From: a virus
DNA: 64,000 nucleotides
Virus record (IMG/VR): IMGVR_UViG_3300045051_000909
Coordinates: 126,001-190,000 of that record
Strand: one strand, 5' to 3'
The position numbers were made by a program, and so were the translations under genes. Every line of letters begins with the position of its first letter. The first letter of the stretch is position 1. Below the pieces are notes generated by a model. That model saw nothing but the letters and a program-made list of their open reading frames with translations, had not been told where the DNA came from and ran no database searches. Below are positions 1,550 to 42,301 of the stretch, piece by piece.

Positions 1550-2300
1550 TACAAGTCTCCTCGAGATACTTGAAGATGTATCCCTTAGTATGAGAAAGCC
1601 TACCTTTGAGAACTGCGGAGATAGCCGAACTGTCGACCCCCAGCTGGCGTCCTGCTTCTCGTACTGAATCGTACCGATTACCAAACTGATCTGTGAATGG
1701 ACGTGCACCGCGGGCACGAGCCATGCGCAACCGTTGCTCAGGTGTATGCGGGCCGTGAATAGCTGCACGCGTACGTGCATTCGCTAATTGTCGTCGCTGA
1801 ACGATGTTCTGCATCCGCTGTTGTTGTGCGGTACGCATTCGCTGCCGCGTCTCCTCGGAAAAGACGCGTCCTTTGAACAACTGTGAATAGTACTTACGTT
1901 CGGCGGGGTCCTCAAAGCGTTTCTTCGTACTCAAGCTTAATCTGCGTTTGGTTTCTTCAGACACTTGACGACCAACACGAGAACGGGCGCGCTCCTTTGC
2001 CGAGACATTAGTCAGATTCGGATTTTGTACGCGACAGCTATCGATCCAGTATGCCTCTCTAGTAGCTAGTTGATCTTTTGACTTTACTATCTCGAGGATT
2101 ACTGGCTCAGGCAGTACTCCCGTGGCTAACAGCCCACGCAGCCAGCCACCTTTTGGAGTACCCGCGTCTCTGCTTAGTGCCCCTGGTGAATAGTGGCGAC
2201 GTGCTCGCTTTAGGCCCTGAACTGATTGACCCACGTAATAGATCAGGCCATCACGCGGGTCAATCAATCCATAAATAATCACCTGTGCTTTCACCCACAT
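1533..2300 (-). CDS. GIY-YIG homing endonuclease with NUMOD repeats
   Basis: A 255-residue protein. The N-terminus shows the GIY-YIG core (IIYGLIDPRDGLIYYVGQS, residues 6-24) with a following Arg/His-rich segment and a Glu in REAYWIDSC. Next come three Ser/Thr-Glu-Glu-type repeats of the NUMOD3 kind (about 115-205). The C-terminal NUMOD1-like DNA-binding segment contains YDSVREAGRQLG and a closing GYIFKYLEE. This is the architecture of phage homing nucleases, which cut an allele lacking the gene and spread by repair. The ATG at 2300 lies inside the last codons of the ribonucleotide reductase gene (10-base overlap), so insertion at the 3' end of that gene is likely. Confidence 0.9.
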   Translation of the reverse strand: MWVKAQVIIYGLIDPRDGLIYYVGQSVQGLKRARRHYSPGALSRDAGTPKGGWLRGLLATGVLPEPVILEIVKSKDQLATREAYWIDSCRVQNPNLTNVSAKERARSRVGRQVSEETKRRLSLSTKKRFEDPAERKYYSQLFKGRVFSEETRQRMRTAQQQRMQNIVQRRQLANARTRAAIHGPHTPEQRLRMARARGARPFTDQFGNRYDSVREAGRQLGVDSSAISAVLKGRLSHTKGYIFKYLEETCNVSVQ

Positions 2301-4918
2301 CCAGTAGTAGTACCACAAGTCAGGCACACGAAACAACTGCCTGCCCTGGCAGTGAGATTTCCACAAGAATGACACGGGGGTCCATGGAAGCTGCCCTTCT
2401 CCACCGGCTTACTGGGGAGCTCCGCCTTCTCTTCCGGGACTTCTGCCGGATCGCTGATGTGTTGCTCGAGGTACCGCGCGATGTAGTCCGCTAGCGAGCT
2501 CACCATCGGGATCTCCGGATCCCCGGTGAACCCGTGCGGCTCGAACTTCATGCCCTTGAACTTGTCGATGAAGGTCTGAAGCGGGACCCCGTACTGGAGG
2601 CCAACGCTCACACCGATGCAGGCCATGTTGAGTAGGCCGGACAACGCCGATCCTTCCTTGGAGATCTCCACGAAGAGCTCTCCGAGCGACCCGTCATCGT
2701 GCTTGCCCAGGAAGAGGTAGCCTTCCTGCCCGCCGACGGTGAACTTGTGAATAGCACCCTTACGGGTGTCCGGCAGACGCCGGCGCTCACCCCAGCCTAG
2801 GCCCTTGTGCATCTTGTGCTCGCCCTTGATTTCGGTCTTCTTGGCCGAAGCGGGCTGGCTGAGCTTGCAGCCGTCGCGGTAGATAGCGATGGCCTTGAGA
2901 CCCAGCTCCCACGCACGCCAGTAGGTCTTGGAGACGTCTTCGACCGTGGCCGACGAAGGCAGGTTGACTGTCTTGCTGATGGCGCCCGAGAGGAACGGCT
3001 GCTGCACCGCCATCATCTTGAGATGACCATCAACCGAGATGGGGTCATCCCCGAGTGCGGTCTGGAACACCTTGGCATGGCTCGCGGTAATGTGCGGCGC
3101 ATTGGTCAAGCTGCCTGTGTCAGCGATGTGCTTGAGAATCGCGGCACGCGGTGCACCCTTGTATCCGAGGACTGCGAGACCCTCTTCGACGACGTTCAAG
3201 GGCATCTTCAGCGTGCCACCCCCAATCAGCTTCTTGTACGTGATGAGACTCAATGCCGGCTCGCCGCTGGTGGTATCGCAGTCCATCATGAAGGCGATGG
3301 TGCCCGTCGGAGCAAGCAGCGTCACCTGGGAGTTACGGAAGCCGTACTGCTGACCCAGCATCGACGCCTTGAACAGCGTCGCGATGGCCTCCTGCCGGTA
3401 ATCCGTGGACGGGAGCTTGGAAAGCTCGAGGTTGTGCATGTAGGCGTCGTGGTGCATCGCCAACACCCGAAGCATCGCCTCCTTGTTGATGGCGTATCCT
3501 TCGAAGGGCCCACGAAGCGCTGCCAACTGCGCGCTAGTGTGATACGCAGCCCCGGTCATCAGCGCAGTGATGTCTGCCGCGAGAGCCCGACCTTCGTCGC
3601 TGTCGTAGGGCAGTCCAAACGCCATAAGCAGCGCCCCCAGGTTCGTGTACCCCAGCCCCAGCGGCCGGAAGCGGTGGCTGTTTGCACCGATCTCCTCCGT
3701 GGGGTAGCTCGAGGCATCGACCAGCGTCTCCATCGCTACGATAGCGATTGCACACGCATGCTTGAACGCGCTGGTGTCGAACCGTGAACCCGCCTTGAAG
3801 CGAAGCAGGTTGAGCGAGCCCAAGTTGCAGGCACTGTTGTCGAGGAACATGAACTCTGAGCAGGGATTCGATGCAGTGATCGGTCCGCTCTTCGGGCAGG
3901 TATGCCACCGGTTCACAGTATCGTGGAACTGGAGACCGGGGTCGCCGCAGAAGTGCGCAGCCTTGACGAGCTCATCCCAGAGTTCATCCGCCTGGTAGAG
4001 CCACGTCCCGTTCAGGATCTCCTTGGTCTCGTGAATTGGGTAGACGTGCCAGTCGCCCTTCTCGGCGACCTTCTTCATGAACGCGTCAGTCACGCGCACG
4101 CTGTTGTTGGCGTTCTGGAACGGGACGAGGTCGTAGACGTTGCCTGGGACATTGAACTCGGCGGTGTACTTGCCCGTCTCATACAGGTCTCGTGCGACCT
4201 GCTCCGCCTCTGCCTTGCACTTGATGAACTCGAGGATGTCCGGATGGCTGGCATTCAAGCAGACCATCTTGGCGGCACGCCGCGTGGTTCCGCCGGACTT
4301 GGTCACCCCCGCGAACGCGTCGAAGCCCCGCATGAAACTGACGGGTCCAGAAGCGTTGCCGCCACCGGAGAGCTTCTCCAGGCGCGAACGAAGATTCGAG
4401 AGGTTCGTACCGGTACCGGAACCGCCCTTGAAGACCATGACCTCCTTCTTTGCGAGATCGGTGATGGACTCCATGGTGTCTTCGACATGTTGAATGAAGC
4501 ACGCCGATGCCTGCGGCTTCGCCACTACGCCGACGTTGAACCACACCGGGCTGTTGAAGCTGAACAGCTGATTGACGAGCATGAACTCAAGCTCATCGTG
4601 AAAGATTTCAAGCTGGTCGACGGGAGATGCGGGGAAGATCCCCTGATCCATGGCAGCCTTGCAAATCGTCGATACGACGCGGTCGATCATCTGCTTGGCG
4701 GAGGTCTCCCGCTTTCCATCGACCACGCGGAAGTACTTGGATGCTACGATCTGTGCGGCGCGGTCGGACCAGAACTCCGGGATTTCGACACCGCGCTGTT
4801 CGAACATGATGGTGCCATCGGGTTCCTTGATGATGGCATCCGTCTTGCGCCACTTCACGCGCTCCAGCGGGCGAGTGTCACCCTCCTTGGTGAAGAGACG
4901 CTCAATCGTCAGATTCAT
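2291..4918 (-). CDS. nrdJ: Adenosylcobalamin-dependent (class II) ribonucleotide reductase
   Basis: An 875-residue enzyme that would make deoxyribonucleotides using a B12-derived radical. Visible features are the Asn-Pro-Cys segment ASNPCSEFMFLDNSACNLGS (about residues 345-365), Cys residues in the N-terminal domain (ASACFIQHVE) and GGSGTGTNLSNLRS. A TSCPD-type C-terminal domain (GYLFLGKHDDGSLGELFVEI, MACIGVSVG) and a zinc-binding tail (CHSC, CFVC) follow. These match NrdJ-type enzymes. The ATG at 4918 is chosen over an upstream extension because it overlaps the preceding stop as ATGA and NrdJ-like sequence begins there. It lies in one operon with the RuvC-like and primase genes. Confidence 0.95.
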   Translation of the reverse strand: MNLTIERLFTKEGDTRPLERVKWRKTDAIIKEPDGTIMFEQRGVEIPEFWSDRAAQIVASKYFRVVDGKRETSAKQMIDRVVSTICKAAMDQGIFPASPVDQLEIFHDELEFMLVNQLFSFNSPVWFNVGVVAKPQASACFIQHVEDTMESITDLAKKEVMVFKGGSGTGTNLSNLRSRLEKLSGGGNASGPVSFMRGFDAFAGVTKSGGTTRRAAKMVCLNASHPDILEFIKCKAEAEQVARDLYETGKYTAEFNVPGNVYDLVPFQNANNSVRVTDAFMKKVAEKGDWHVYPIHETKEILNGTWLYQADELWDELVKAAHFCGDPGLQFHDTVNRWHTCPKSGPITASNPCSEFMFLDNSACNLGSLNLLRFKAGSRFDTSAFKHACAIAIVAMETLVDASSYPTEEIGANSHRFRPLGLGYTNLGALLMAFGLPYDSDEGRALAADITALMTGAAYHTSAQLAALRGPFEGYAINKEAMLRVLAMHHDAYMHNLELSKLPSTDYRQEAIATLFKASMLGQQYGFRNSQVTLLAPTGTIAFMMDCDTTSGEPALSLITYKKLIGGGTLKMPLNVVEEGLAVLGYKGAPRAAILKHIADTGSLTNAPHITASHAKVFQTALGDDPISVDGHLKMMAVQQPFLSGAISKTVNLPSSATVEDVSKTYWRAWELGLKAIAIYRDGCKLSQPASAKKTEIKGEHKMHKGLGWGERRRLPDTRKGAIHKFTVGGQEGYLFLGKHDDGSLGELFVEISKEGSALSGLLNMACIGVSVGLQYGVPLQTFIDKFKGMKFEPHGFTGDPEIPMVSSLADYIARYLEQHISDPAEVPEEKAELPSKPVEKGSFHGPPCHSCGNLTARAGSCFVCLTCGTTTGCG

Positions 4919-5469
4919 GTGTTGATGCTCCTGGGTGTGTAAGAGACAAGCGCGAGCCCTGGCTCCTGTAGGAGCTTCTTCAGAACCTCGAGCTCCGCTC
5001 GCACAGTAACTGCTTCTTGGTGCTTCAGTGCGCGTGCGACCTGCGCCAATACGTAAGCGTCGCACTCATCATTCTGATCAATATGCTGCTGCCACTTCTG
5101 TGCTACTAACTTCGCTACGCCCTCCTTGTCCGCCTTGGCATTACCAGCGAACTTCTTGAGTGAGGTGGGCGGCACGGTGATGAGTGGAACTGCGTGCTGA
5201 TGGCACGCCAACTTCACCATGCCTCCCGCCTCGCCCAAGTCGAACGGCCGGTTCACGGACTCAATGGAGTATCCCTCCATCGCCCCTTGTACCGGCTTCC
5301 ACCGCTTTACTACGTAAACCACTTGATCGTAGATCATCGCCAGACGCTCACCCCCTCGAGCCTTGCCCGTGGGAACGTGCGTCAAGAAGACCGGGCGATG
5401 CGTCCCCTCTTCGAGAACGCAGATGCCGGGACTCCGAAGCGATTGGTCTACGCCCAAGTAGTACTCCAC
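4915..5469 (-). CDS. RuvC-like Holliday junction resolvase
   Basis: A 184-residue protein with an RNase H-like fold of the RuvC type. The first Asp lies in YYLGVDQSLRSPGICVL near the N-terminus. A Glu lies in GAMEGYSI (about 64), and the C-terminal acidic pair lies in QNDECDAYVLAQVARAL (about 132-148). This matches phage resolvases that process branched DNA before packaging and during recombination. Its end overlaps the reductase gene (ATGA), and it starts 2 bases before the stop of the primase-helicase gene, so it belongs to the replication operon. A related nuclease of the same fold cannot be excluded. Confidence 0.8.
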   Translation of the reverse strand: MEYYLGVDQSLRSPGICVLEEGTHRPVFLTHVPTGKARGGERLAMIYDQVVYVVKRWKPVQGAMEGYSIESVNRPFDLGEAGGMVKLACHQHAVPLITVPPTSLKKFAGNAKADKEGVAKLVAQKWQQHIDQNDECDAYVLAQVARALKHQEAVTVRAELEVLKKLLQEPGLALVSYTPRSINT

Positions 5470-5471
5470 GA

Positions 5472-8132
5472 CTACACCTCGATGTTGTTGGAAGTCTTAG
5501 GCGGCTCCGTCTTTTCCTGCCGCTCCTTCTTCCGAGCTTCCAGGTCTACCACAACCTCATCGGGGCCGCGTAGAGGGATTCCCTTCCAGGCGCGATGTTG
5601 CACGTTGCCGTAGCGAATTTTCACAGGCTGAATGTTGTGGGTCTCTGTTAGTGTCTGACCGAGACGACTCTGACCACGCGAACGCATGTTATTGCGCCGA
5701 CAGTAGTCGTTGTACACCTCTTTGAGGGTGCTGGAGAGGATGAAGTTCTCACCCTCCACCGTCACGAAGGCTTCACGCACCTTGCCGTTCTGGGCGGAGT
5801 CTACCCAGTCGTAGCTGACCGCGAGCCAGCCATCCTCAAGGATGGACTGAACAAACCGCTCATCGGAGTGCATGCTAGCTAGCATCATCGCTTCGCGTGC
5901 CTTAGAGATGTAGAGATCCCCGTACTTGATGACCGTATTGCGTGTGAGTAGGTGATCGAAGAAAGCTGCAACTTCGATCTGCGGACCAAGCAGATCATCG
6001 TAGATCTTGCTGGCCATCGCAGGGTCAAATCGTTCCGACCGGAAGACCGTGTAACGACGATCTCCACGTTCGACGATCACCGGGCGGTCGTCGTTAGACG
6101 TGAACATGATGTTGAAGTTGTTCTTGACGAGTCGCGATCCCTGGAACTTTTGCTCAATTGAGATCATTGGATCGGTGATCCAGGGCTTGACCTTATTCGC
6201 CGTTTCCATCGAACGATTGGTGGAAGAGACCACCTCGTTGGCCACGACGAACAACTTGTCCAGGAGCTCGCCGTTGAAGCGGTTGTCGAGCTCATTCTGA
6301 CCGATGGTCACCACGTTGGCGTCACCATAGATCGCCTCCATGATGTTGCCCAACGTGCCCTTGCCCGAGCCGGGCGCACCGTGGAAGACAAGCGCTGTGC
6401 CAAGCTTGTACGGGCCGCCGATACGCTTACCTGTCTGATCCTTCTTGTGCAGTTCCTGGACGGGGCGAGCGAGCCAGTCAAGAACGAACTCCGCTCCCTT
6501 GGCGTCACCGCCACAGAGATTCAAGATGAGCGCGCGGATGTGATCCCACGCACCCGGCTTGGGCTCGAGCTTGGTCGGCTTGTACGTGTTGAAGATGTTG
6601 TCCTTGGGCCCATATACGAGCTCAACACCCGGCTGGGTCCAGACAGGCTTGCGGTAGAGGAACTGCGGCACCTTGGCCTTCCAACCCTCCTGCTTCTTAC
6701 GCGGAAGACCCAGGCCGCTCAGATGCATCGAGAACGCGGCCTCGTCCATGTCGTGCCACTCGTTATCCTCGTCCTTCGACATCCACTTCGACCGCTCCTT
6801 GTCGTACAGGTACTCATCAGGGTTGTGCTTGAAGATGGTGTCCCCACCCTCACCTTCCTCATCGCTAGAAGCCGCTTCGGATGACGGACTCGAGGGCGTC
6901 GACGACGGCGTCGGCGAGGCGGGCATCTTTTTCGGCTCGTTCGAGCTCGTCTCGGAGGCCTTGGACTCGCAGCTGAGCTCCTGTGGCTTGGGCTCGGGCG
7001 AAGTAGAGGGCTGACTGTAGTCCGGGGCTGCCCCCGACTCCACCGGAGCTGCCGTAGGAGTGGGGGCCTGGACTTTTGGGTGTGCTGCCCGATCTCCTGG
7101 GCGAATCATCATACGGACGAGACCCAGCGGCGACTTGGCACCAGTTCCCAGGTCCTGACAGGCAGCCTCAGGTACACCGTTGAGTAGCAGGTGCTGGAAG
7201 GTCATCGGACCATACTGCGCGGCGGATCGGAGAGCATCCTTGAAGGTCTTTTGGGTCACGGTCCAGTCGTAGCGGCTGGGGTCAGGCTCAGAGACTTTAT
7301 GGAAGAGCTCAGCCCCCGCATCATGCATGGACTCGTCTTCGAGGACAGCGGCGGCGATGTTGGTGGCGATGCCGCGCCACGCTTCCCGGCTTACGTCGGC
7401 GGGGTGTTCCATCGCCCACTGGATGATGGGGAGTTCTTCCAGCTTCTCGAGAAGGAGCGTGGCGTCTGCTGGGCGGTAGGCCCGCCGTGCCTCAGCGGGT
7501 GCGCGGTGTGCTCCCTGGCGCTTGACCGCGCGCTCAATGGGCGTGCTCTCCGGGGGCTGGTAGTCGGCGGGAACGACGGACATAGACAGCAGCGGTCCGT
7601 CGAGAGGGCGGATCCACGCATCGGCCTTCGCTGACTCATCGGGTGCGCGCGGGAGGAAGAAGAGCCGGTCGGGGTTCTTACCGGACGGATCAGCCTTGCG
7701 CTCTGTGAGCTCGTAGAACCACCACCAGAGCCGCCGGTGATCGTTCATCGAAATCGGCTCCGCCAAGGGGAGCAGGACGCGGAACTTCGGGAACGCAGAC
7801 GTGTGGGAGTAGCTGGAGTGAGCGACGCCTTTGAAGGGTAGCTTCGCCAGGAGTGCATCGACGTCGACGCGCTCGAGGACCGTCTTTCCGTCGATCTTGT
7901 ACTTGCCGTCGAAGTCCAGCGCAAGGCCGGTGACTTCCTGGACGTTCTTCTGCTCGAGGCGTGCGCCTTCACGGAAGGTAGCGAGGATGACCGCTGTTCC
8001 ATCTTTCGGGCCTACGAGATGGCCACGTTTGATCAGCTGCTGTACGAACCCCTCCGGGGTGTTTTGGAGTGACTGATAGTCATCCTTGATCGATGCGGAC
8101 TGCGCGATGGTGAAGTGAAAAGTAGAAGCCAT
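5472..8132 (-). CDS. Primase/SF3-type helicase
   Basis: About 886 residues. The N-terminal third has motifs of archaeo-eukaryotic-type primase or bifunctional replication proteins (GLALDFDGKYKIDG, AHSSYSHTSAFPKFRVLLP, KNPDRLFFLPR). A low-complexity Pro/Ser/Glu linker (about 350-430) precedes a helicase domain. That domain has Walker A FHGAPGSGKGTLG near residue 590, acidic KLFVVANEVV, and an SF3-like sensor region IMFTSNDDRPVIVERGDRRY. It probably primes and unwinds phage DNA. The start is uncertain: ATG 8132 and GTG 8144 are in frame and neither has a clear ribosome site. A second primase-helicase lies at 26741-30166. Confidence 0.85.
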   Translation of the reverse strand: MASTFHFTIAQSASIKDDYQSLQNTPEGFVQQLIKRGHLVGPKDGTAVILATFREGARLEQKNVQEVTGLALDFDGKYKIDGKTVLERVDVDALLAKLPFKGVAHSSYSHTSAFPKFRVLLPLAEPISMNDHRRLWWWFYELTERKADPSGKNPDRLFFLPRAPDESAKADAWIRPLDGPLLSMSVVPADYQPPESTPIERAVKRQGAHRAPAEARRAYRPADATLLLEKLEELPIIQWAMEHPADVSREAWRGIATNIAAAVLEDESMHDAGAELFHKVSEPDPSRYDWTVTQKTFKDALRSAAQYGPMTFQHLLLNGVPEAACQDLGTGAKSPLGLVRMMIRPGDRAAHPKVQAPTPTAAPVESGAAPDYSQPSTSPEPKPQELSCESKASETSSNEPKKMPASPTPSSTPSSPSSEAASSDEEGEGGDTIFKHNPDEYLYDKERSKWMSKDEDNEWHDMDEAAFSMHLSGLGLPRKKQEGWKAKVPQFLYRKPVWTQPGVELVYGPKDNIFNTYKPTKLEPKPGAWDHIRALILNLCGGDAKGAEFVLDWLARPVQELHKKDQTGKRIGGPYKLGTALVFHGAPGSGKGTLGNIMEAIYGDANVVTIGQNELDNRFNGELLDKLFVVANEVVSSTNRSMETANKVKPWITDPMISIEQKFQGSRLVKNNFNIMFTSNDDRPVIVERGDRRYTVFRSERFDPAMASKIYDDLLGPQIEVAAFFDHLLTRNTVIKYGDLYISKAREAMMLASMHSDERFVQSILEDGWLAVSYDWVDSAQNGKVREAFVTVEGENFILSSTLKEVYNDYCRRNNMRSRGQSRLGQTLTETHNIQPVKIRYGNVQHRAWKGIPLRGPDEVVVDLEARKKERQEKTEPPKTSNNIEV

Positions 8133-9690: not shown

Positions 9691-10737
9691 ATGGTTCTCA
9701 CCACTATCTCGCAGCTGTGTCAGGCAGTCACTGACCTGAATGGTCAGCTTCGCTTCAAGATCGACAGCACGGTGATCCTGGTCGCCCCAGGAGACCTTCC
9801 GCATGCCGAGATCTTTGTCATGCGCATCAACGCAGCCACGGATCCGAAGGCTGATACGTTCATGCGTATCGCCACGGTCCTAGACCTGACGACTCTGCGT
9901 ACGACGCGCGAAGATGCAGTGAGCATTGGCGCCACGGCGTATCTCACCAGCACCTTCTCGGTTTCCTACCCTGATCTGAATCAGGCAACCGAAGCCAAGA
10001 AGTTGATCCAGGCACGCATTGATCGTCTGATCGCCGATTGGAAGAAGTACAACACGGCGTTCACAGCGAACAGCACCACGAATTTCCCGATGGTGCCGAC
10101 CAACATCATTCAAGCGAAGATCGACGCTTTCAGCGCTGCAAAGATCGCGCTGACGTCGGCTGACGCAACCAAAGCTGCGGCGGACGCTGACTGGACGCTC
10201 AAGGACGCCTTGGCCACCAGTGCTAACAACGCCCTGGTCACGGCGACGCAAGATAGCATCAAGTGCTCTACGCTCTCGTCTTCGCTTGGCGCGATCATCA
10301 CCGCAGAGAGCACTTTCCGTACTGCCGCCGGAACACTGCTAACAACACTCGGTACTCAGCTACCCGCGGTACGCGACATTCAGGTTCAGCTGGAAGCCAT
10401 CCCTCAAGCGTCTACACAGGCAACGGATCTCGACACAGCCTGCACTGCCCTCGAGACCGCGCAGGGGCTGTTCGCCACTGCTAAGCTTGATGAGTACACC
10501 ACAGGCGCTACGGCTCTTGCGGGTCTGAGCGCAGCCCTGAGCACCAGCTGTGGAGAGAAGACGGCAGCTCTCAACAGCGCCGCGCTGGCCAAATCAAACG
10601 CCGACGCTGCGAAGGCCACCGCCGGGACGACCAAGGCGGTCGCCGGGGCGGCAGCCTCCGCAGCGCAGGCAACGTATGACGATGCGCTTGCAGCTGTACT
10701 CGAGGTCTGCCCTACGTTCGATCCGAACAGCGTTTAA
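9691..10737 (+). CDS. Ala/Thr-rich coiled-coil protein, probable virion component
   Basis: A 348-residue protein with ATG 9691 and GAGG five bases upstream. Residues about 1-130 form a domain shared with the preceding small protein. The rest is strongly Ala-, Thr- and Ser-rich with heptad-like helical segments and short Ala/Asp runs (SNADAAKATAG, AAASAAQATYDDAL), ending CPTFDPNSV. Such composition is common in tail-fibre, tail-needle and other elongated virion proteins, but no family motif is visible. Its end overlaps the convergent gene at 10734 by 4 bases. Confidence 0.7.
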   Translation: MVLTTISQLCQAVTDLNGQLRFKIDSTVILVAPGDLPHAEIFVMRINAATDPKADTFMRIATVLDLTTLRTTREDAVSIGATAYLTSTFSVSYPDLNQATEAKKLIQARIDRLIADWKKYNTAFTANSTTNFPMVPTNIIQAKIDAFSAAKIALTSADATKAAADADWTLKDALATSANNALVTATQDSIKCSTLSSSLGAIITAESTFRTAAGTLLTTLGTQLPAVRDIQVQLEAIPQASTQATDLDTACTALETAQGLFATAKLDEYTTGATALAGLSAALSTSCGEKTAALNSAALAKSNADAAKATAGTTKAVAGAAASAAQATYDDALAAVLEVCPTFDPNSV

Positions 10738-12068
10738 CGCGGAGCCCGTTCGACTTTGATCTGGTCCACGGGCGGCGCACCGACGGCATCGAAGAACTCC
10801 GCCCAACTCGAGATGGTGCGGGTGGTCCAGATGCCGCGTCGTCCGCGCAGTCCGAGTTCGACGCCGCTGTACAACAACTTGCGGTAGCCGATCTTGTCAT
10901 AGTAGGAGCCGAAGCCCGCGGAGCGCCGGCGTAGTGTTTCATGTTCGAGAGTCGCCAGCCAGAGTGCGTAGGCTAGGTCGGAGACCGGCTTGATTTGCGC
11001 CTCCCGCTTGCGCTTGGGCAGGCCGAATGCCTCGGCGACTTGTGCGTAGGTCGGCCAATCCCTCTCCAGATCGGCTGAGGTTGCATTGCGGGATGCGGTA
11101 ATTGTGATCTTTTCACCGGAGCCCCGGTTTTCACGCCGCCAGTGATATGCCATATGCAGGTTGAAGCCATCGAGGATCACTTTACGCCGCCCAAGCTGAG
11201 TCTCCAGGCCAGACTGCTGTGCGATGAGCATGACTTGCCAGGGAGCGTAGCCACTGTCCTTGAACTGGTCCTTGCGCTCCTCAATCACCCACTCCGTGAT
11301 CTCTTCATCTGGTGGGAACCGTCCATCGCAGTACCAGTGGCGGTAGTTCCACTGACATGCTGATTTCTGCATCGGACAGTTGGCGCACTGCTCCTTTTTG
11401 AACTTGACTCGATCTGCGCGGGTCACAGCGGCCTTCTGCCGCAGCTCGACCCAACGTTGGATCTGCGTGAAGTCCTGATCAGTCCAACTGCGATTGGCCG
11501 GAGCAAAATGGTCGTACCGGTCTGACTTGGTCAGGACTGGCGAGATGTACGTGAAGCCCGCGATCTGGGTTTTTCGATTGCGAAAGCCAGTGATGACCTC
11601 TTCCTGATCCGTGTTGGTTTCGGGAGCAGCATCCTTGTAATTCTCGAGCAGCCGCCCAGCACAGGTCTTCCCTCGGTCCGGGCACTTCAAACAACCTACC
11701 GCGCGAAACAATGAAAGGCAGGTATCATAGAGTCGCCGATTGGAGAGGGGCACCAATTGCCAGCCCTTAAGACGTATGAGAACGGGTGGATCATCCAGTG
11801 TGGCGCTATCCGGCGGAGGCACTGACTCACCATCGTCGTGGACAAGGATTCGGTCCTTCTCCCCGGGAACAAAGTGGACGAAGTAACCGCGGGGAAAGAG
11901 TCCCCGGTAACTCTCATCTTGGGCGATTCGTTCCTGGTCCTCGAGCGACAATGGATATTCGTCGTCAGACCCGAAGACCAGGACCGGACTGCCGGTACGA
12001 TTCCAGTGTATTCGGTGCCACCGTGTTTCGGATGGCGGAGCTGTGTTGGCAACCGTGAAGTACTTCAT
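10734..12068 (-). CDS. Cys-rich protein of unknown function downstream of the reverse transcriptase
   Basis: A 444-residue protein whose ATG overlaps the stop of the reverse transcriptase gene (ATGA, 12065-12068), so the two are probably co-translated. Two Cys clusters stand out: GCLKCPDRGKTCAG (about 124-137) and CANCPMQKSAC followed by YCDG (about 226-250). These could hold zinc or an iron-sulfur cluster. Downstream are a helical middle (EEITEWVIEERK) and a basic C-terminal half with helix-turn-helix-like TYAQVAEAFGLPKRKREAQ. No family is recognised. Position and overlap make it the most likely effector or cofactor partner of the reverse transcriptase. Confidence 0.75.
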   Translation of the reverse strand: MKYFTVANTAPPSETRWHRIHWNRTGSPVLVFGSDDEYPLSLEDQERIAQDESYRGLFPRGYFVHFVPGEKDRILVHDDGESVPPPDSATLDDPPVLIRLKGWQLVPLSNRRLYDTCLSLFRAVGCLKCPDRGKTCAGRLLENYKDAAPETNTDQEEVITGFRNRKTQIAGFTYISPVLTKSDRYDHFAPANRSWTDQDFTQIQRWVELRQKAAVTRADRVKFKKEQCANCPMQKSACQWNYRHWYCDGRFPPDEEITEWVIEERKDQFKDSGYAPWQVMLIAQQSGLETQLGRRKVILDGFNLHMAYHWRRENRGSGEKITITASRNATSADLERDWPTYAQVAEAFGLPKRKREAQIKPVSDLAYALWLATLEHETLRRRSAGFGSYYDKIGYRKLLYSGVELGLRGRRGIWTTRTISSWAEFFDAVGAPPVDQIKVERAPR

Positions 12069-13309
12069 GTGCTGACCTCTTCATCGGATACAGCGAGCAT
12101 GTCCGGCTCGTTATTCACCTCAAAGGTCTCAGACGCCTCATGAAGTGTGCGCGCATGGCTGTAGATCAAACGTAGCTTGTTGGCTCGCTCCGGGGCCACC
12201 ATTGCGAAGTAGGCGATCTTTCCCGCGATCCAGCTGTGCAACTGCCCGACGCTTTCCTTCTTGGCCCGTTTCACCTGGGCCTGGAAACCATCCTTGACGC
12301 AGTTGTGCAGCAGCGAGCGGAACTTACGGTAGCTCTCGCGCGGGATGTTCACCTTCTGATTGAGCACGATGCCGAGAATCTTCTGTCGGCGATTGGGACG
12401 CTGGACATGCAGCTTCCTGCGGTTTACGCGGTAACCCGCGTCCACCACCACCTGGGTGATGGTCGCGATGACCTTGTCGACCTCTTCGCGGGAAAGGTTT
12501 TCCGGATGCGAGAAGTAGAGGTCATCTGCGTAGCGGGAGTATCGCCAGCCCGGCAACGCTTTCAGCAGTGGACCATCGAGTTTCCAGTCAGCGACCAGGT
12601 TGCAGATGTCACCACTGGCCAGCGAACCCTGGGGTACCCCGCTGTACTTCTTCTTGGTCTTGGGATTCTCCAGAGTCACCGTTAGCAGTTGCGCGAGCAG
12701 GCCAGAGACGTAGTGGTTGTACCCCACGACCTCATGGAAGTACTTGCGGATGAACGAGCGCCGTGTGGATGGGAAGAAGTCCTTCAAGTCCATATGGATC
12801 TTGACGCCACGTCGGGTGCAATCATGCTTGGGCACGGGCTGGCATGCCGGACAGGTAGTTGTTCCTGTTCGGATCAGCTGATACCCCTTCCCGCTGGGCT
12901 CGAGGGTAGTCTGACAGGTATGCGGCTGATCAGACTTGTCGCAGACCTCACAGCTGAACAGATGCTGTTTCGCAGTGTCGCGGGTGGACTTACCCACCTG
13001 ATAGGCACCGACGTGAGGTCCAAGCTGCTCACAGAGCGGAAGCAAGATTCGCGACCGCACTTGTTTGGTGATGAGCCGCATGATTGGAGACGGGTTGTGT
13101 ACGGTCCGCAGACCCCCGCTGGCCTTCTTGATCTTGAAGACCTTGTACTGCTTGTCGCGGTTGTTCAGGATGAACCACAGAGCCCGGCCTGTGAAGCCCA
13201 ATCGGAAGGCGAGGGTCCAGTCATCGATCACCAGCGGCAGTTTGTCGAGCTTGATTTTTGGGGGCTCGAACTCGATGCGTTCGAGCTTAGTCGTCTTGAA
13301 GGTCGCCAC
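12065..13309 (-). CDS. Retron-like reverse transcriptase with an internal Cys-rich insert
   Basis: A 414-residue RNA-directed DNA polymerase. Palm motifs are clear: RT1-like GGLRTVHNPSPIM, motif A HMDLKDFFPS (about 172-181), motif B GVPQGSLASGDICN (about 222-235) and catalytic RYADDLYFS (about 257-265). The following KILGIVLNQKVNIPRE resembles the region after the VTG motif of retron enzymes, and DTAKQH resembles their NAxxH motif. Between RT1 and motif A there is an extra segment (about 117-165) with CEVC, CPAC and further Cys and His residues, likely a zinc-ribbon-like insert. No msr-msd is visible beside it. It overlaps the genes on both sides. Confidence 0.9.
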   Translation of the reverse strand: MATFKTTKLERIEFEPPKIKLDKLPLVIDDWTLAFRLGFTGRALWFILNNRDKQYKVFKIKKASGGLRTVHNPSPIMRLITKQVRSRILLPLCEQLGPHVGAYQVGKSTRDTAKQHLFSCEVCDKSDQPHTCQTTLEPSGKGYQLIRTGTTTCPACQPVPKHDCTRRGVKIHMDLKDFFPSTRRSFIRKYFHEVVGYNHYVSGLLAQLLTVTLENPKTKKKYSGVPQGSLASGDICNLVADWKLDGPLLKALPGWRYSRYADDLYFSHPENLSREEVDKVIATITQVVVDAGYRVNRRKLHVQRPNRRQKILGIVLNQKVNIPRESYRKFRSLLHNCVKDGFQAQVKRAKKESVGQLHSWIAGKIAYFAMVAPERANKLRLIYSHARTLHEASETFEVNNEPDMLAVSDEEVST

Positions 13310-13952
13310 GGGACATCATCTCCTCGATCTCGGGTTCCTGGATATTGGGCGTCGGATCCGGCTTGTCGAGCCCATCCTTGAAGTAGTTGAACATCCCCAG
13401 GCTTAGATTCTCGTAGCAGATCTCCTGACCTGGATGACATTCCCCGTTTTGGTGGTTGATGTAGCGTGCGCACATGACACACACGGGACGGATGTTCTTC
13501 TCCGGTGTCTGGAGATAGGTGAGTGTCGGGAACGGCGAGACCCTGCCAGGCATCTTCTCACGGCCACGCCGCCCTACCCGTCTGTACTTGGTGCGGTACC
13601 ACTCAGACGCTGCGAGATAACGCGGTACCGCGTTCTTGATGAAACGGGTGAGGATCGGAACTGCCATGACCCATTCGTTCTCATCGAGCAGCTTCTGCCA
13701 TTCCTTCTGGGCCAACTTGCTCACCTCGAGCTCATCGTCATCACGCTCGAATGTGCGGTTGATGAACTCATCGGGCATCGCACTCGTGCTGAGCATCGTC
13801 TTTAGCGGGCCCTCGACAGGCATGATCAGCGCGTACCGGAATAGCTGCTTCAGGCACGCATGTTCGCCATGCTTGACGAGGTAAACGCGATCAAACGGGA
13901 AGCCGCTGCCAACGACTCCCCGTTTGATGCGTAGGGTGTAGATCTCTGCCAT
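13287..13952 (-). CDS. Protein of unknown function with Cys/His cluster, in the reverse transcriptase operon
   Basis: A 221-residue protein. It begins with a beta-rich segment (EIYTLRIKRGVVG) and has a helical middle. A conserved-looking metal site near residues 155-180 has CVMC, then His, Cys-His and Cys residues (ECHPGQEIC). The tail is acidic. The ATG overlaps the stop of the preceding gene as TAATG (13952), and its own end overlaps the reverse transcriptase start by 23 bases. This places it firmly in one operon with the enzyme. No family is recognised; nucleic-acid binding is a plausible guess from the metal site. Confidence 0.7.
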   Translation of the reverse strand: MAEIYTLRIKRGVVGSGFPFDRVYLVKHGEHACLKQLFRYALIMPVEGPLKTMLSTSAMPDEFINRTFERDDDELEVSKLAQKEWQKLLDENEWVMAVPILTRFIKNAVPRYLAASEWYRTKYRRVGRRGREKMPGRVSPFPTLTYLQTPEKNIRPVCVMCARYINHQNGECHPGQEICYENLSLGMFNYFKDGLDKPDPTPNIQEPEIEEMMSRGDLQDD

Positions 13953-14203
13953 TACGTCTCCTCGGCGCCCGGCGGCGGCCGGTATTCGCCCCAGCCCATG
14001 TGCTGGTGGTACTTCTGCTGGATTTCCGTCCAGTTCTTGCCTTCGATGGTGCAGCAGTACTTTCCCGTGTCGCCGTACATCTCGCGCATGATCTGATCAA
14101 CTTTCTTCTTGTTCTCGTCGAGCTCCGGGGTCCCGACGGGGTCGAGTCCTTCACAACCGCCGTACTCGTCGTCGGGACCCCAGCTCCAGTGCTCAGCTTT
14201 CAT
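13952..14203 (-). CDS. Small acidic protein of unknown function
   Basis: An 83-residue protein from ATG 14203, overlapping the VWA metallopeptidase gene by 11 bases and the next gene by one. It has two Trp-rich ends (HWSWGPDDEYGG, HMGWGEYRPPPG), a CC pair (KYCCTIEGKNW) and a helical middle. It may be an adaptor for its operon partners, but nothing in the sequence identifies a function. Confidence 0.65.
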   Translation of the reverse strand: MKAEHWSWGPDDEYGGCEGLDPVGTPELDENKKKVDQIMREMYGDTGKYCCTIEGKNWTEIQQKYHQHMGWGEYRPPPGAEET

Positions 14204-15812
14204 CTTCGTCGAACTCTCCCTTGATGTGGAACATTTCGATCACCCGATCCGGCGGCGTGTTGTTCATGCCCGGTGCCGGGCGGCAGTTGGGTGCGACCAA
14301 CCAGACGATGGGGCATTCTGGCCGGTACTGTGGAAAGACTTCGCCATCGATGACGACGCCACCATCAGTGAAGACGACGATGAGGTCAGGCTTCCCGGGA
14401 TGTTCCTCCGGGCGGCGGCTCGCGTTCTGCCAGTCCTGAGGTGTGTCGACTCCCAGGATGCGTTTGAACATGGGCGTGTAGACCGTCCCGCCATAGCCGT
14501 AGCGAGCGCGAGCACCCCCATCCTCAGGCGGCGCCAGATTGTCGGTGAGCTCCTCGTGCTGGCATGCGGCGTCGCCCTGGATGTGCACGAGCTCGATGAA
14601 CTTGTTGACCTTCATGAGCGAGTTGATGCACAGGCAGGCACGCGCGTATTCAGCATCGGCGACGGACCCGGAGGTGTCAGTCAGCCACCAGATCCGGAAC
14701 TTGCGGTCCAAGGTGAACCCCGGCCAGGGTTCGTAGTCCGTCCCGAACAGGGACGTGTTCGGCATGGCCATCTCCTCCAGGATCTTGGAGTGGATGGCCC
14801 CCTGGAGAGCATCGTCCAGAAGCCAGTGCCACGGGATTTGCTCGGGCGTGAGTAGGCCTTTGACCAGGCTTTCGATGCCAGCCGGAACAGTGCCCCGCGA
14901 ACGGATGGTCTGTTCGTGGGCGCTCTTCACCAGGCGCTTGGCGTGCTGCTTCATCTTGTTGCTGACGCCAGTAGCCTCTTCCGGAGACATATTGTCGGCC
15001 ATCTTGTTCCAGAGCTGATGGGCCTTCTTCGTGAGGCGTTCGAACGCGTCGGCCAGCTTATCGATGAGCTCGGGGTTATTGCGGGCGGCCGGGCCCAGTC
15101 CCTGCGGCACCTGGGGGTCATCGAGCGTGGGCTGATCCGATTCAGCCTCTCCCTTGGAGCCCTTCTTGCCCTTCCCGCCCTTGCCCGGCATGATGCCGCC
15201 CAGGCTCCCTCCGTCGATGGGTACCTCGATGCCAGCACCCCCGCTGCCACCCTGCTCCTGCTTCTCCCCGTCCTTACCCTCGAGCATCTGGTCGAGCATT
15301 TTCTCCATGTTCTCGAGGGCTTGCGGCAGATCAGCCACCAGCATGGCGATGTACTGCTCCATGCTTTTGCCCTTGGGATAGTTCATCTTTTCCGGGAGGA
15401 TCCAGGGGAACTTGCTGTCCTTGAACTCGGGCTCGTTCCGGACGATCTTGTCGTTGTCAGCGAGGTCAGCGGCGATGTTGAACACCACCATGACAGCCTT
15501 GCGCAGGGTGGGGTCGGCGAGCTGGCACTGAACGCGGAACAAGCGCTCGATGTGACGCAGTGCGATATGCCCCGCCTCATGGACGAGGACGAGCTTCTTG
15601 TCGCCGGTGGGGAGCTCGTGGAAGAAGTCATCATCCACGTTGAGGACGTAGCGACCGTTCGGGGCGACGCTCACAGAAGCCGTGCCGAAGTTCTTCTGGT
15701 AGAACTTGTCACACCCGTTGATGACACGCGCCCAGTAGTTGTCCCCGCCCCGTGCGGAGACGAGGTAGACGAGCGACCGTGAAAGTTCGGTGGTTTCGGT
15801 GGTTTCGGACAT
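14193..15812 (-). CDS. VWA-domain metallopeptidase-like protein (MoxR partner)
   Basis: A 539-residue protein. The N-terminal domain holds a zinc-peptidase-like motif VHEAGHIALRH (about residue 77). A Gly/Lys-rich low-complexity linker (about 170-215) follows. The C-terminal von Willebrand A domain has the metal site motif DTSGS (about 374) and a later VVFTDGG strand (about 480). This combination is known from bacterial and phage proteins encoded with MoxR-type AAA+ ATPases, where the pair remodels or matures other proteins. The likely ATPase partner is at 17594-18868 on the same strand. The two are separated by two plus-strand genes. Confidence 0.8.
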   Translation of the reverse strand: MSETTETTELSRSLVYLVSARGGDNYWARVINGCDKFYQKNFGTASVSVAPNGRYVLNVDDDFFHELPTGDKKLVLVHEAGHIALRHIERLFRVQCQLADPTLRKAVMVVFNIAADLADNDKIVRNEPEFKDSKFPWILPEKMNYPKGKSMEQYIAMLVADLPQALENMEKMLDQMLEGKDGEKQEQGGSGGAGIEVPIDGGSLGGIMPGKGGKGKKGSKGEAESDQPTLDDPQVPQGLGPAARNNPELIDKLADAFERLTKKAHQLWNKMADNMSPEEATGVSNKMKQHAKRLVKSAHEQTIRSRGTVPAGIESLVKGLLTPEQIPWHWLLDDALQGAIHSKILEEMAMPNTSLFGTDYEPWPGFTLDRKFRIWWLTDTSGSVADAEYARACLCINSLMKVNKFIELVHIQGDAACQHEELTDNLAPPEDGGARARYGYGGTVYTPMFKRILGVDTPQDWQNASRRPEEHPGKPDLIVVFTDGGVVIDGEVFPQYRPECPIVWLVAPNCRPAPGMNNTPPDRVIEMFHIKGEFDEDES

Positions 15813-20538: not shown

Positions 20539-20574
20539 AAACTATCGTCGGGCAGTTTAGACTTGCTGAGCGGG

Positions 20575-20647
20575 CACCGACTCGCCGTCGGACCGTGGTC
20601 AGTAGAGGCTAGGCTTCGGATGACCTGGGTCCGACGGTGAATCGGTG
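20575..20647. other. Long-range stem at the terminase-proximal end of the array
   Basis: CACCGA (20575-20580) pairs with TCGGTG (20642-20647), and inside it the 10-base CCGTCGGACC (20585-20594) pairs exactly with GGTCCGACGG (20628-20637). This closes a domain distinct from the repeated modules. A direct repeat, CTTCGG(G)ACTCGCTAAG, follows at 20651-20667 and 20702-20717, and a perfect 10-bp hairpin with a CCC loop at 20725-20747. Confidence 0.7.
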
Positions 20648-20754
20648 TCGCTTCGGGACTCGCTAAGATCGACAGGTAGTGCTTGAGCCGCTACCGGTCG
20701 TCTTCGGACTCGCTAAGTGTTTAGTTTTCTGGACCCCGTCCAGAAAATTACAAC

Positions 20755-22490
20755 TTCGCAGAGCTAGTAGCGGCGTTGCGCCGCCTGCGAATTTTCGATT
20801 CGCACCAAGTCCTACTTTGGGGAACTCCATACACATCACGGAGCTCGGGAAACCGTCCTACTGAGGGGTTTGTCATCGGCCGCCGGCGCGCGCTACGTCC
20901 GGTGGACCCTTAATCGGCCTACGGCCGAGGATCACAATGCCGGCGTTACGCCGGCTCTCGTTTTCAAGACTAGGACAATGGGTACTGCGTCAGATTCGCT
21001 TTGGGGGCACAGTTCTGAAGAGCTCGGCGAGATGACACAGCTTCTTCGATCTCGAGATCCCTTTGTCGGCCGAAGGCCGAGGGCCGGTGTACTGGCGTTA
21101 CGCCAGTCGCTCGTCTGAGTGCCGAATCTGTAGGCTTACTTTGAGTGCGGCTCCGGCCACGTACGTGGTCCAGTCGCTGTCTATTTGGTTCCTATGGAAC
21201 CAGAGTACGGTGCTAACGTTACGTCAGCCTCGGTTCAATGAGCTAAGCCTGTAGGATCTACTTTGGGCGGGATGTCATTAAATGCTATTTATGACTTACT
21301 ATTTCCCTTAGACGTCACTAGAAGCCATTTTCCGGTCCGAAGGCCGGCGATGGCAGCGCTGACGTTACGTCAGCCGCCGGTATGCGCGCGCTAGATCCAC
21401 TTTGTGGTTCTCTTCAGGCGGAGGACCTCGTCGACCTGCATGACTGCGTGTGTCGAGAGTTCGTACGCCAGGCTACTCCGGCGAAGCCGGTGCAGTCAAT
21501 GCCAGCGTTACACTGGCCACCGTAACTGGTGCTGGATCATTTCAAGGTTCACTTCGTGGTGCCCTTCAGTGACTGGGAGACGTCTCGAGCTGTCCGCCTA
21601 TGGCATGTCATCTGAAGCACCTAGTCGGCCGAAGGCCGACAGTAATGTTGCTGGCGTTTCGCCAGCCGTCGGTAGTTGGACGCTGAACCTTATCTAGCCT
21701 TCTTTGTGCGAGCAGCTCGCGGTGACCTGCGCAGCTCCTTAATTAGCCTAAACGCGCTACTTAAGTTTCCGGTCACGAGCTTGACATTCTTCCGGGCCGA
21801 AGGCCCGATAGCGTATTGCTGGCGTCTCACCAGCCGTCGGATTGTCGACGCAAGGCTATGTATGTTGCAGATCTTTCTTCGTTCTCGCGGGGTACCGGCT
21901 TAAGCTCGAGGTGAAATACGTATATCGAGCGCCGCCTTTATCGGAGATGGTTCGAGGGGCGGACAACCTGCGGCGCCCGTAGCGTCAGCGAGCTAAGCTC
22001 GCCGAGCTAGGCTCGTGTAGACCCTCCACTTCGCGCCGGTGTCCTGGCATGAAGTAGCGGAGGGCGCCGCAGCGTAAGTCCGATGGTCCCAATGCCAGCT
22101 TTAAGCCGGCCATCGGAAGGCGCCGATGCAAAGATCTTTCACTTGGTGATCATCTCGAAGTTCTACGAGACGAGCGAGCCATCAGCTTGAGCCGAGAAAT
22201 GCTGTGCTTTTCGATGGCGAAAGCTGTGGCGAGGTTCGTCGAGTAGTTCTTCGCTGGAACGTATGCTCGCGTTTCGCGAGCGCCTAGCGATTAGGGCTGA
22301 AAGATACTCTTCCACTTTGGGGCCGACCTGGTGTGATCCACCCGCGGGCTTCATCTCCGAGCACAGCCGTGTAGCTCGAGCTGGCGTGATCCGTAGCGAA
22401 GCGTAGGATCAGAGCTAGCCGAGCGAAACGGACTGCGCAGGAGATGCAGCCCAGGTCTCAAATACCCGCGTTACGCAGGTTCCTGTGCTG
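20755..22490. repeat. Eleven copies of a P1-bulge-hairpin module
   Basis: Inner hairpins lie at 20770-20784, 20939-20955, 21091-21107, 21212-21228, 21358-21374, 21501-21517, 21650-21666, 21818-21834, 22094-22110, 22265-22281 and 22464-22480. Outer stems include TTCGCAG/CTGCGAA (20755/20785), CCGGCG/CGCCGG (21344/21375), CGGTG/CACCG (21488/21518), CCGAC/GTCGG (21636/21668) and CCGATG/CATCGG (22080/22111). Others are CGAG/CTCG (20926/20957 and 21078/21110) and CAGG/CCTG (22452/22482). The copy at 22265 has only a weak 4-bp P1. The loop-proximal CG-TTN-CG part is the most constant. Confidence 0.8.
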
Positions 22491-22506
22491 ACAGGGCTGG
22501 AAGAGA

Positions 22507-33107: not shown

Positions 33108-34160
33108 CTATCCGATGACTCGGAGCAGCTCCTTGAACTCGATGCCCGCGGCGATGGCGAGGCCGTGGAGGATGTTGCGGTTCTCCGCCTTGCTCTTCTC
33201 GGTCTCTGCCCGCGCGAACTTATTCGCGTAGGTCACGATCTGCATCAGCAGGTCGGTCTTCTTCAGCGGCTCGAAGCCGATCTCCTTCACGGACGAGGCG
33301 AGGTCGACTTTCGTTTCCTCCGCGCTCTTGGTGTCGTCGGTCTCGCCATCCTTCTTCTTGGGGGCGCGCTTGGTCTTCTCCTTCTCCGCCTCGCGGGCGG
33401 CCTTGGCCTCGGTCTTCTCCTTCTCTTTCTGGTTCAGGAACTCGACCTTGTTCTTGAGGTCGGTGGCCGTGTACGACGGCACGTCGGGCAGCAGCGTGAG
33501 CAGCGCCTCCTCGTTCTTCAAACGGCCGAGTTCGCGCGCTTGCGTGAAGTCGATGTGGCCGCGCTTCAACGCCACCTGCGCCTTGGTGGGCAGCGCCAGG
33601 AGGCCGAGGTACTGCGAGATGGCGCCGGCGGAGAGCCCGAGTGCATCGGCGGCCTCCTTCTGGCTCTCCATCTGCTCCTCGTCCATCATCTTCTTGATCG
33701 CGTTGGCCTTGTCGATGGCGTTCATGTCCTCGCGCTGGAGGTTCTCGATGAGCTGCATGCGGCGCCGGCGGTTCTCATCCGCCGTCTGGCCGACCACGGG
33801 CACCTCCTTCAGGCCCGCCATCTTGGCGGCGGCGTAGCGGCGGTAGCCCGCGATGAGCTCGAACTTGCCGTCGGGGCGCTGCGCGTCCGAGACGACGAGC
33901 GGCTGGAGGATGCCCTCCTTCTTGATCGTCTGGGAGAGGTCGCTGATGTTGCCCATCTCGGTGCGGGCGTTGCGCGCGGGGTCGGCGAAGATGCTGGTCA
34001 GCGGCAACGTCTGCGGCCTGAGCTCGACGGCGTTCAGCGTCTCGTGGGAGACCTTGCTGACCTTCGACTCGGTCGTCTCCTCCTTCTCGCTCGCGGTCAG
34101 CGCGGCGTTCATGGCCTCCACGTTCTTCTTGTGCTGCTCGTTCTGGATGTCGGTGCTCAT
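33108..34160 (-). CDS. ParB/Spo0J-like protein
   Basis: A 350-residue protein. The ParB N-terminal nuclease or CTPase-like domain shows SIFADPARNAR...LSQTIKKEGILQPLVV (about 55-90), GYRRYAAAKMAG (about 103-114) and RRRMQLIENLQREDMN. A helix-turn-helix follows (AADALGLSAGAISQYLGLL, about 160-178). The C-terminal third is Lys/Glu-rich with KKRAPKKK-type basic stretches and a final folded helix. Phage ParB-like proteins act in partition, DNA organisation or transcription control. ATG 34160 has GAGGAG upstream. No ParA was found in the window. Palindromes at 20.5-22.5 kb or 8.7-9.2 kb could be binding sites, which is speculation. Confidence 0.85.
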   Translation of the reverse strand: MSTDIQNEQHKKNVEAMNAALTASEKEETTESKVSKVSHETLNAVELRPQTLPLTSIFADPARNARTEMGNISDLSQTIKKEGILQPLVVSDAQRPDGKFELIAGYRRYAAAKMAGLKEVPVVGQTADENRRRRMQLIENLQREDMNAIDKANAIKKMMDEEQMESQKEAADALGLSAGAISQYLGLLALPTKAQVALKRGHIDFTQARELGRLKNEEALLTLLPDVPSYTATDLKNKVEFLNQKEKEKTEAKAAREAEKEKTKRAPKKKDGETDDTKSAEETKVDLASSVKEIGFEPLKKTDLLMQIVTYANKFARAETEKSKAENRNILHGLAIAAGIEFKELLRVIG

Positions 34161-34168
34161 TATGCTCC

Positions 34169-34540
34169 TCACGCCTGTTCGTCGAACATCTCGACGAGTA
34201 GATCGGTGTAAATGTCCTGTTGGATGCGGAGCTCCAATAGCTCCGCGTCCGGCATCTGTGTGTACTTCGCTGCTAAAATCCGTGCGCGAATTACCCTAAG
34301 CCTCAGGACAAGGCTGTGCACGTCAGGCTCATCCTCAATCAAAGAGGCGGCCGAAGTGAGAGTCTGAAGTACTTGGGCGTAGGGCCGGGCCGGCTGGTAA
34401 TTCGACAGGAGGTTCAGGCCCGCGCTGATGAGAGGGAGGATCCGTTTGAAGTTACGGATCGTGACGTAGGACTTGGTGCGAACATCTTGAATCAGCTGGG
34501 CTCGATAAGTGCCTGCGCACTCCGAGGGGCTATCCGCCAT
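34169..34540 (-). CDS. Helical protein of unknown function
   Basis: A 123-residue, mainly helical protein (NFKRILPLISAGLNLL, RLRVIRARILAAKYTQ, LLELRIQQDIYTDLLVEMF). ATG 34540 overlaps the stop of the preceding gene by 11 bases; GGAGG lies directly before it, closer than usual. It ends 8 bases before the ParB-like start. No motif is recognised. Its place upstream of the ParB-like gene suggests joint expression only. Confidence 0.6.
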   Translation of the reverse strand: MADSPSECAGTYRAQLIQDVRTKSYVTIRNFKRILPLISAGLNLLSNYQPARPYAQVLQTLTSAASLIEDEPDVHSLVLRLRVIRARILAAKYTQMPDAELLELRIQQDIYTDLLVEMFDEQA

Positions 34541-42215: not shown

Positions 42216-42242
42216 CACACACTCCCTCTCAGCTGCGTTTAT

Positions 42243-42261
42243 ACCCGACAATGTGTCGGGT
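42243..42261. promoter_or_regulatory. Inverted repeat upstream of RNA polymerase gene
   Basis: ACCCGACA-ATG-TGTCGGGT is a perfect repeat with 8-base arms and a 3-base centre, ending 28 bases before the TATACT element. Position and symmetry suit an operator controlling the polymerase gene and possibly the divergent minus-strand gene at 42215. Confidence 0.55.
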
Positions 42262-42288
42262 ACATGTACTGATACCAACCAGGAGCGC

Positions 42289-42294
42289 TATACT
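42289..42294 (+). promoter_or_regulatory. Putative promoter element TATACT before RNA polymerase gene
   Basis: TATACT lies 7 bases before ATG 42302, the same distance as at the sigma gene. The only AGGAG nearby (42281-42285) is 16 bases from the ATG, too far for normal use, so a leaderless transcript is plausible. Confidence 0.5.
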
Positions 42295-42301
42295 TCTGGT
42301 C

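Follow-up and report, generated by a model that had tools for sequence, protein, structure and literature searches.

A tandem array of putative retron msr-msd units beside the terminase gene of an uncultured phage

In an uncultured phage represented by a 194-kb virus record, 1,968 bases separate the terminase gene terL from the gene for the exonuclease subunit of DNA polymerase, and the question raised by this convergent intergenic region (20539–22506) is what so long an interval holds. Here we analyse a 64-kb window of that record (hereafter the window; unless a relative is named, coordinates refer to it). Known retrons, most of them from bacteria, have one template RNA for each reverse transcriptase (RT) and protect their host cell from phages. 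We propose, with a probability of about 0.86 on the sequence evidence, that the interval consists of about ten retron noncoding RNA (ncRNA) units (msr-msd) arrayed in tandem and served in trans by the phage's own retron-type RT. We arrive at this reading because of the layout of the modules, their minus orientation and the co-occurrence of an RT. No report of such an array was found in the literature searched, in which coverage of subscription journals was poor.

Repeated modules between terL and the exonuclease gene

The terL stop is at 20538 on the plus strand and the exonuclease stop at 22507 on the minus strand, with the polymerase and primase genes following the exonuclease gene. As a preliminary description of the sequence had stated, no credible open reading frame or gene lies between these two stops; a search of the array for transfer RNAs (tRNAs) likewise found none. 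The interval carries eleven CTTYG-type motifs, each with a complementary outer stem (P1). This agrees with the eleven module copies previously counted as far as the motifs go, but only ten are full modules (M1–M8, M10 and M11; 121–267 nucleotides (nt) each), M9 (22022–22064) being a short hairpin nested inside M8 (Table 1). The combination of P1, CTTYG and GC with an exact 6-bp stem occurs nine times in the array, against a mean of 0.04 (maximum 2) in 400 shuffles; the rest of the window has none. Perfect 7-bp hairpins with a 3-nt loop, also part of the preliminary description, number 8 against 0.16 expected from shuffles. The folding-energy z-score is about −12 on both strands, as estimated from 12 shuffles only.

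Read on the minus strand, a unit runs in the order a1, G(C), a hairpin, the 7-bp hairpin with its 3-nt loop (triloop), a variable structured region, CRAAG and a2. The inverted repeats a1 and a2, which form P1, bound every unit, and the 7-bp stem with its 3-nt loop is found in each full unit. The G right after a1 is invariant in all 15 aligned units (see below), most of which have (U/C)AGC and nearly all GC. Between units and between relatives the msr parts are conserved and the msd parts diverged. A long msd-like hairpin is clear in the folds of M6, M7, M10 and M11, in a region too variable for covariation testing; the fold of M6 is the most clearly retron-like. Kissing loops joining the triloops were considered and dropped, as they are not conserved.

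In retrons the priming G directly follows a1, mostly within TAGC and within CAGC in Mx162 and Sa163 (PMC6868368), the P3 stem-loop with a UUU loop serves RT recognition (PMC11754653), and the ncRNA is intolerant of change next to a2 (PMC8989520). The layout of the array units resembles that of Retron-Eco1 (Ec86), which has an a1/a2 stem, a priming G after a1, msr stem-loops, a variable msd (msd-like region in the array) and sensitive bases by a2 (PMC11754653, PMC8989520). However, Retron-Eco1 has one ncRNA within its RT cassette and a UUU loop, whereas the phage array comprises about ten differing units 7 kb from the RT, with UAA or AAA triloops.

The preliminary description had instead drawn a comparison with GOLLD and ROOL, which are also large, ornate, phage-encoded RNAs (PMC12286853). 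The array is indeed long, strongly folded and phage-encoded, and it could be a structural RNA of this sort whose conservation in RT-bearing phages is a coincidence. We consider this very improbable: the architecture differs from that of GOLLD and ROOL, no Rfam (release 15) family matches the array even at permissive E-values, the a1/G/triloop/a2 layout is retron-like, and the array co-occurs with an RT some of whose bacterial relatives have similar single RNAs.

Covariation and strand of the RNA

For covariation analysis, units of the window and of three relatives were aligned, 15 in all. Standard pairs fill 96.6% of pair cells, compared with 71.9% after shuffling, and 61 cells show double changes, compared with 17.5; both sides have changed in 13 of 14 pairs and, for P1, in 7 of 7. 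The earlier statement that the copies differ yet keep their pairing is thereby borne out. When the partner was slid by 1–3 columns the signal was lost, with no slid version coming close. A covariance model (R1) built from the 15 units, a step that the preliminary description had envisaged, recovered M11, which was absent from training (E-value 2.4e-6), as well as further untrained units in relatives (several in L036 and L039, and those in L005 and L006 at the correct coordinates). Its matches in the 194-kb genome are confined to this array, and all R1 matches are on the minus strand.

Mismatches are also distributed asymmetrically. In an unbiased scan for 7-bp/3-nt hairpins, wobble-type mismatches were almost all A–C on the plus strand, that is, G–U on the minus strand (9:1 in the window, 4:1 in L036 and 5:0 in L107). 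Most terL–polymerase slots fit more 7-bp triloop hairpins in the minus sense (17 versus 9 in the window), and among L002-like relatives the closing pair switches between G–C and G–U on that strand. A promoter-like TATAAG box occurs in 13 of 32 loci (background 1.4% per tile); in the minus sense it sits right upstream of the array, immediately after the polymerase gene, and in L057 and L064 it stands 6–10 nt ahead of the first a1. As judged from these sequence features, the functional RNA strand of the array is the minus strand, running from the exonuclease stop to the terL stop. The YACTTTG-like motif noted previously does recur, as CTTYG, but was read on the other strand: with the minus strand functional, the plus-strand CTTTG after P1 would really be CAAAG preceding the 3′ strand of P1. 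A plus-strand RNA has a slightly better raw folding energy in the window; it was rejected, as the wobbles favour the minus strand and energies vary with base composition.

Strand asymmetry also bears on whether the interval works as DNA, its hairpins acting in single-stranded form at a replication origin or at a packaging or recombination site. A hairpin-rich array at the convergent junction between terminase and replication genes would suit such an element. Yet the wobbles are strongly strand-asymmetric, relatives have a promoter-like motif upstream on the minus strand, and presence of the array tracks the RT, while array-less phages retain terL and polymerase; we regard a DNA-level element as scarcely credible.

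The reverse transcriptase and its partner genes

The best PADLOC models for the window RT are retron RTs (RT_XIII, E-value 2.8e-57). Among its PDB matches retron Ec86 is on top and the majority are named retron RTs, and the YxDD motif is intact (RYADD). In three other phages (L100, L098 and L101) distant relatives of the RT (L155, L156 and L157, respectively) have YSDN at the catalytic site and the slots still contain hairpin arrays; the activity of these relatives is uncertain. Two partner genes, p13287 and p10734, are restricted to RT-positive phages; their products match no known effector, and neither gene was found near bacterial RT relatives. The adjoining HNH endonuclease was rejected as a retron component, since it occurs in RT-negative relatives; because most of these carry it, we take it to belong to the core gene set of the lineage at large.

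In the mechanism that we envisage, the phage RT would recognize each unit by its 7-bp triloop hairpin and, like known retron RTs, prime from the invariant G that follows a1. Reverse transcription would begin at the CRAAG beside a2 and copy the unit-specific msd, such that each unit would yield its own multicopy single-stranded DNA (msDNA) and the array a set of different msDNAs. One RT with many templates would also suit a system in which the msd units act as donors for the editing of genes of the phage or its host, in the style of diversity-generating retroelements. However, no template repeat/variable repeat pairing, by which such retroelements are defined, was found in the 194-kb genome or the window; the genome has no second match to the array, and matches within the window are of 12–17 bases only, at chance level. 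Editing of phage genes is therefore unlikely, and we rate the donor-template explanation as a whole highly unlikely.

Distribution among related phages

The terL–polymerase slot was inspected in about 80 related loci. A protein search detected the RT in 23 of 40 records, and a profile detected it in two more (G026 and G029). All array-bearing phages with contigs reaching the RT position have the RT; the array-bearing records without an RT match are fragments of 12–35 kb that, by locus coordinates, end before that position. Both RT and array are absent from eight relatives of 105–191 kb. Identities of TerL and of the RT are correlated (r = 0.894; 0 of 2,000 permutations), which suggests that the RT has been inherited vertically with the phage genome.

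Phages with the RT operon and a terL–polymerase slot without an array are represented by L165–L167, G011 and G013; in L165–L167 the gaps by the RT are occupied by a gene of 123–124 amino acids and are not intergenic. In the RT-negative L084–L086, a 178-base slot appears to carry a tRNA gene in place of the array. A phage contig of this family (L168; QMZE01000001.1, 78,677 bases) lies inside a metagenome-assembled genome titled Archaeoglobales archaeon and is probably a mis-binned phage.

Unit number and architecture vary. Tandem units number ten in the window, at least nine in L036, four in L039 and three in L002 and L003. Distant phages have a single a1 (GGTACTG, then G) and 3–9 copies of a2: four in L009, three each in L057 and L061, and nine in L064. 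The last is the extreme of this arrangement, the slot in RT sense (5588–6740) holding nine (G)ACAGCAGTRCC copies, spaced roughly 60–140 nt, after one GGTACTG a1. L002 and L049 combine three tandem units with one composite unit, and the 3′ domain of the window RNA looks like the relatives' unit of one a1 and several a2. Its three GCGAGTC copies correspond to plus-strand GACTCGC at 20579–20585, 20657–20663 and 20707–20713, and its a1 is weak (6 bp including one G–U). The composite unit may be ancestral, and the clade of the window may have expanded it into tandem units afterwards. It seems reasonably likely that this large-phage lineage keeps an expandable retron-template array for one RT, either as tandem msr-msd units (window) or as one a1/msr with up to nine a2 copies as potential alternative partners of a1 (L064), choosing among many templates to give a diversified msDNA repertoire.

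Bacterial relatives and known retrons

A genome scan identified RT relatives at 26–39% identity in Planctomycetota, Myxococcota, Acidobacteria, Massilia and others. Their top PADLOC retron classes are RT_other, RT_outgroup and RT_XIII, a Myxococcus RT (L225) scoring highest as RT_XIII. Upstream of some of these RTs (for instance L204, L214 and L241) is a single RNA with long a1/a2, a G after a1, a stem with a UUA triloop and an msd hairpin, and the layout score reaches 16 or more in 8 of 64 bacterial relatives, against 0 shuffled. Rfam does not recognize these RNAs either, so its negative result for the array weighs little against a retron. The phage RT has its sequence class in common with the myxobacterial retrons Mx162 and Sa163 and with the PADLOC RT_XIII/RT_other relatives; however, retrons of the Mx162/Sa163 type have a single chromosomal ncRNA, unlike the phage array. 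For Retron-Nex1 (Ne160) of Nannocystis exedens, several duplicated msr-msd-like sequences are mentioned in a passage of PMC6868368 that cites Lampson and Rice (1997). Those copies lie in a bacterial chromosome with no RT within a kilobase, whereas the phage copies stand in tandem and, throughout a phage clade, go together with an RT.

Several observations weigh against a retron array. Two RT-positive phages, G011 (L048) and G013 (L052), have a slot without an array, nor did the surroundings of their RTs yield an ncRNA. Array and RT are on the same strand but about 7 kb apart with other genes between, and do not form a single msr-msd/RT cassette, the usual though not indispensable arrangement in retrons. 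M1 carries AGT instead of AGC, and M2, M7 and M8 lack the A; the window's own clade is without the TATAAG motif. Searching with the phage-unit model gives no match to the ncRNAs of the bacterial RT relatives, and p13287 and p10734 match no solved structure or fold when compared as predicted models of moderate confidence.

Table 1 Features of the array and the RT operon in the window
Feature	Position	Strand	Composition or basis
Tandem retron ncRNA (msr-msd) array (proposed)	20539–22506	−	Folds, signature counts, hairpin strand fit, covariation, covariance model
Unit M11	22307–22505	−	a1 CTCTTCCA, GC, hairpin, triloop hairpin ACCTGCG-TAA-CGCGGGT, long msd-like hairpin, CAAAG, a2 TGGAAGAG
Unit M10	22134–22305	−	a1 ATCTTTCA, GC, triloop hairpin GCTCGCG-AAA-CGCGAGC, CCAAG, a2 TGAAAGAT
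Unit M8	21870–22136	−	a1 GATCTTT, GC, triloop hairpin GCCGGCT-TAA-AGCTGGC, CGAAG, a2 AAAGATC; M9 hairpin within
Unit M7	21695–21858	−	a1 TAGCCTT, GC, triloop hairpin with AGA loop, CAAAG, a2 AAGGCTA
Unit M6	21544–21691	−	a1 AAGGTTCA, GC, hairpin, triloop hairpin GCTGGCG-AAA-CGCCAGC, hairpin with TTC loop, msd-like stem, CGAAG, a2 TGAACCTT
Unit M5	21394–21538	−	a1 GATCCA, GC, triloop hairpin GCCAGTG-TAA-CGCTGGC, CAAAG, a2 TGGATC
Unit M4	21254–21398	−	a1 GGATCTA, GC, triloop hairpin GCTGACG-TAA-CGTCAGC, CAAAG, a2 TAGATCC
Unit M3	21131–21251	−	a1 AGGCTTA, GC, triloop hairpin GCTGACG-TAA-CGTTAGC, CAAAG, a2 TAAGCCT
Unit M2	20991–21130	−	a1 CAGATTCG, GC, triloop hairpin ACTGGCG-TAA-CGCCAGT, CAAAG, a2 CGAATCTG
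Unit M1	20809–20976	−	a1 GTCCTA, GT, triloop hairpin GCCGGCG-TAA-CGCCGGC, CAAAG, a2 TAGGAC
3′ domain of RNA	20539–20808	−	Triloop hairpin at about 20769–20785, then three GCGAGTC copies; sequence, comparison with L002, L049, L009 and L064, inference
Retron-type RT, 414 amino acids, RYADD motif	12065–13309	−	Profile, structure-database and motif matches
Partner p13287, 221 amino acids, C-terminal four-cysteine cluster	13287–13952	−	Overlaps RT start
Partner p10734, 444 amino acids, two four-cysteine clusters	10734–12068	−	Overlaps RT stop
HNH endonuclease adjoining RT operon	14193–15812	−	Present also in most RT-negative relatives

Elsewhere in the window, this large phage encodes a ParB-family protein (ParB_N and HTH_ParB; 33108–34172, minus strand), a class II (B12-dependent) ribonucleotide reductase (2291–5065, minus strand) and a multi-subunit RNA polymerase (42209–47074 and 48023–49822, both plus strand). 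In a 1,621-amino-acid RNA polymerase protein, matches to Rpb2 and Rpb1 domains are accompanied by an inorganic pyrophosphatase domain (Pfam InPase, E-value 2e-31) mid-protein.

Discussion

What a phage would do with such RNAs is a separate matter, on which we are tentative. The likeliest role, and the least certain step of our reading, is that of diversified DNA lures or sensors: alongside p13287 and p10734, the msDNAs would take part in contests with the defences of hosts or with rival phages; stable inheritance combined with fast-changing msd sequences and unit numbers fits this role. The same retron array might instead serve the core phage cycle, for instance by supplying replication or packaging primers or a structural nucleic acid. 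Inheritance of array and RT in step with TerL, the adjoining core genes and conservation down to about 45% TerL identity are in keeping with a core role, which we nevertheless think less likely: the msr is retained, yet msd sequences and the number of units change quickly, and sister phages live without the array.

If the retron array is real, natural multi-template retrons exist and would be useful for producing several single-stranded DNAs from one RT. It also raises the question of what use ten different msDNAs are to a phage. Where known retrons make one small single-stranded DNA, this phage may make a whole set, and its clade would have turned a retron into an inherited part of the genome, multiplied its template RNA and diversified its msd, thereby reversing the usual picture of retrons.
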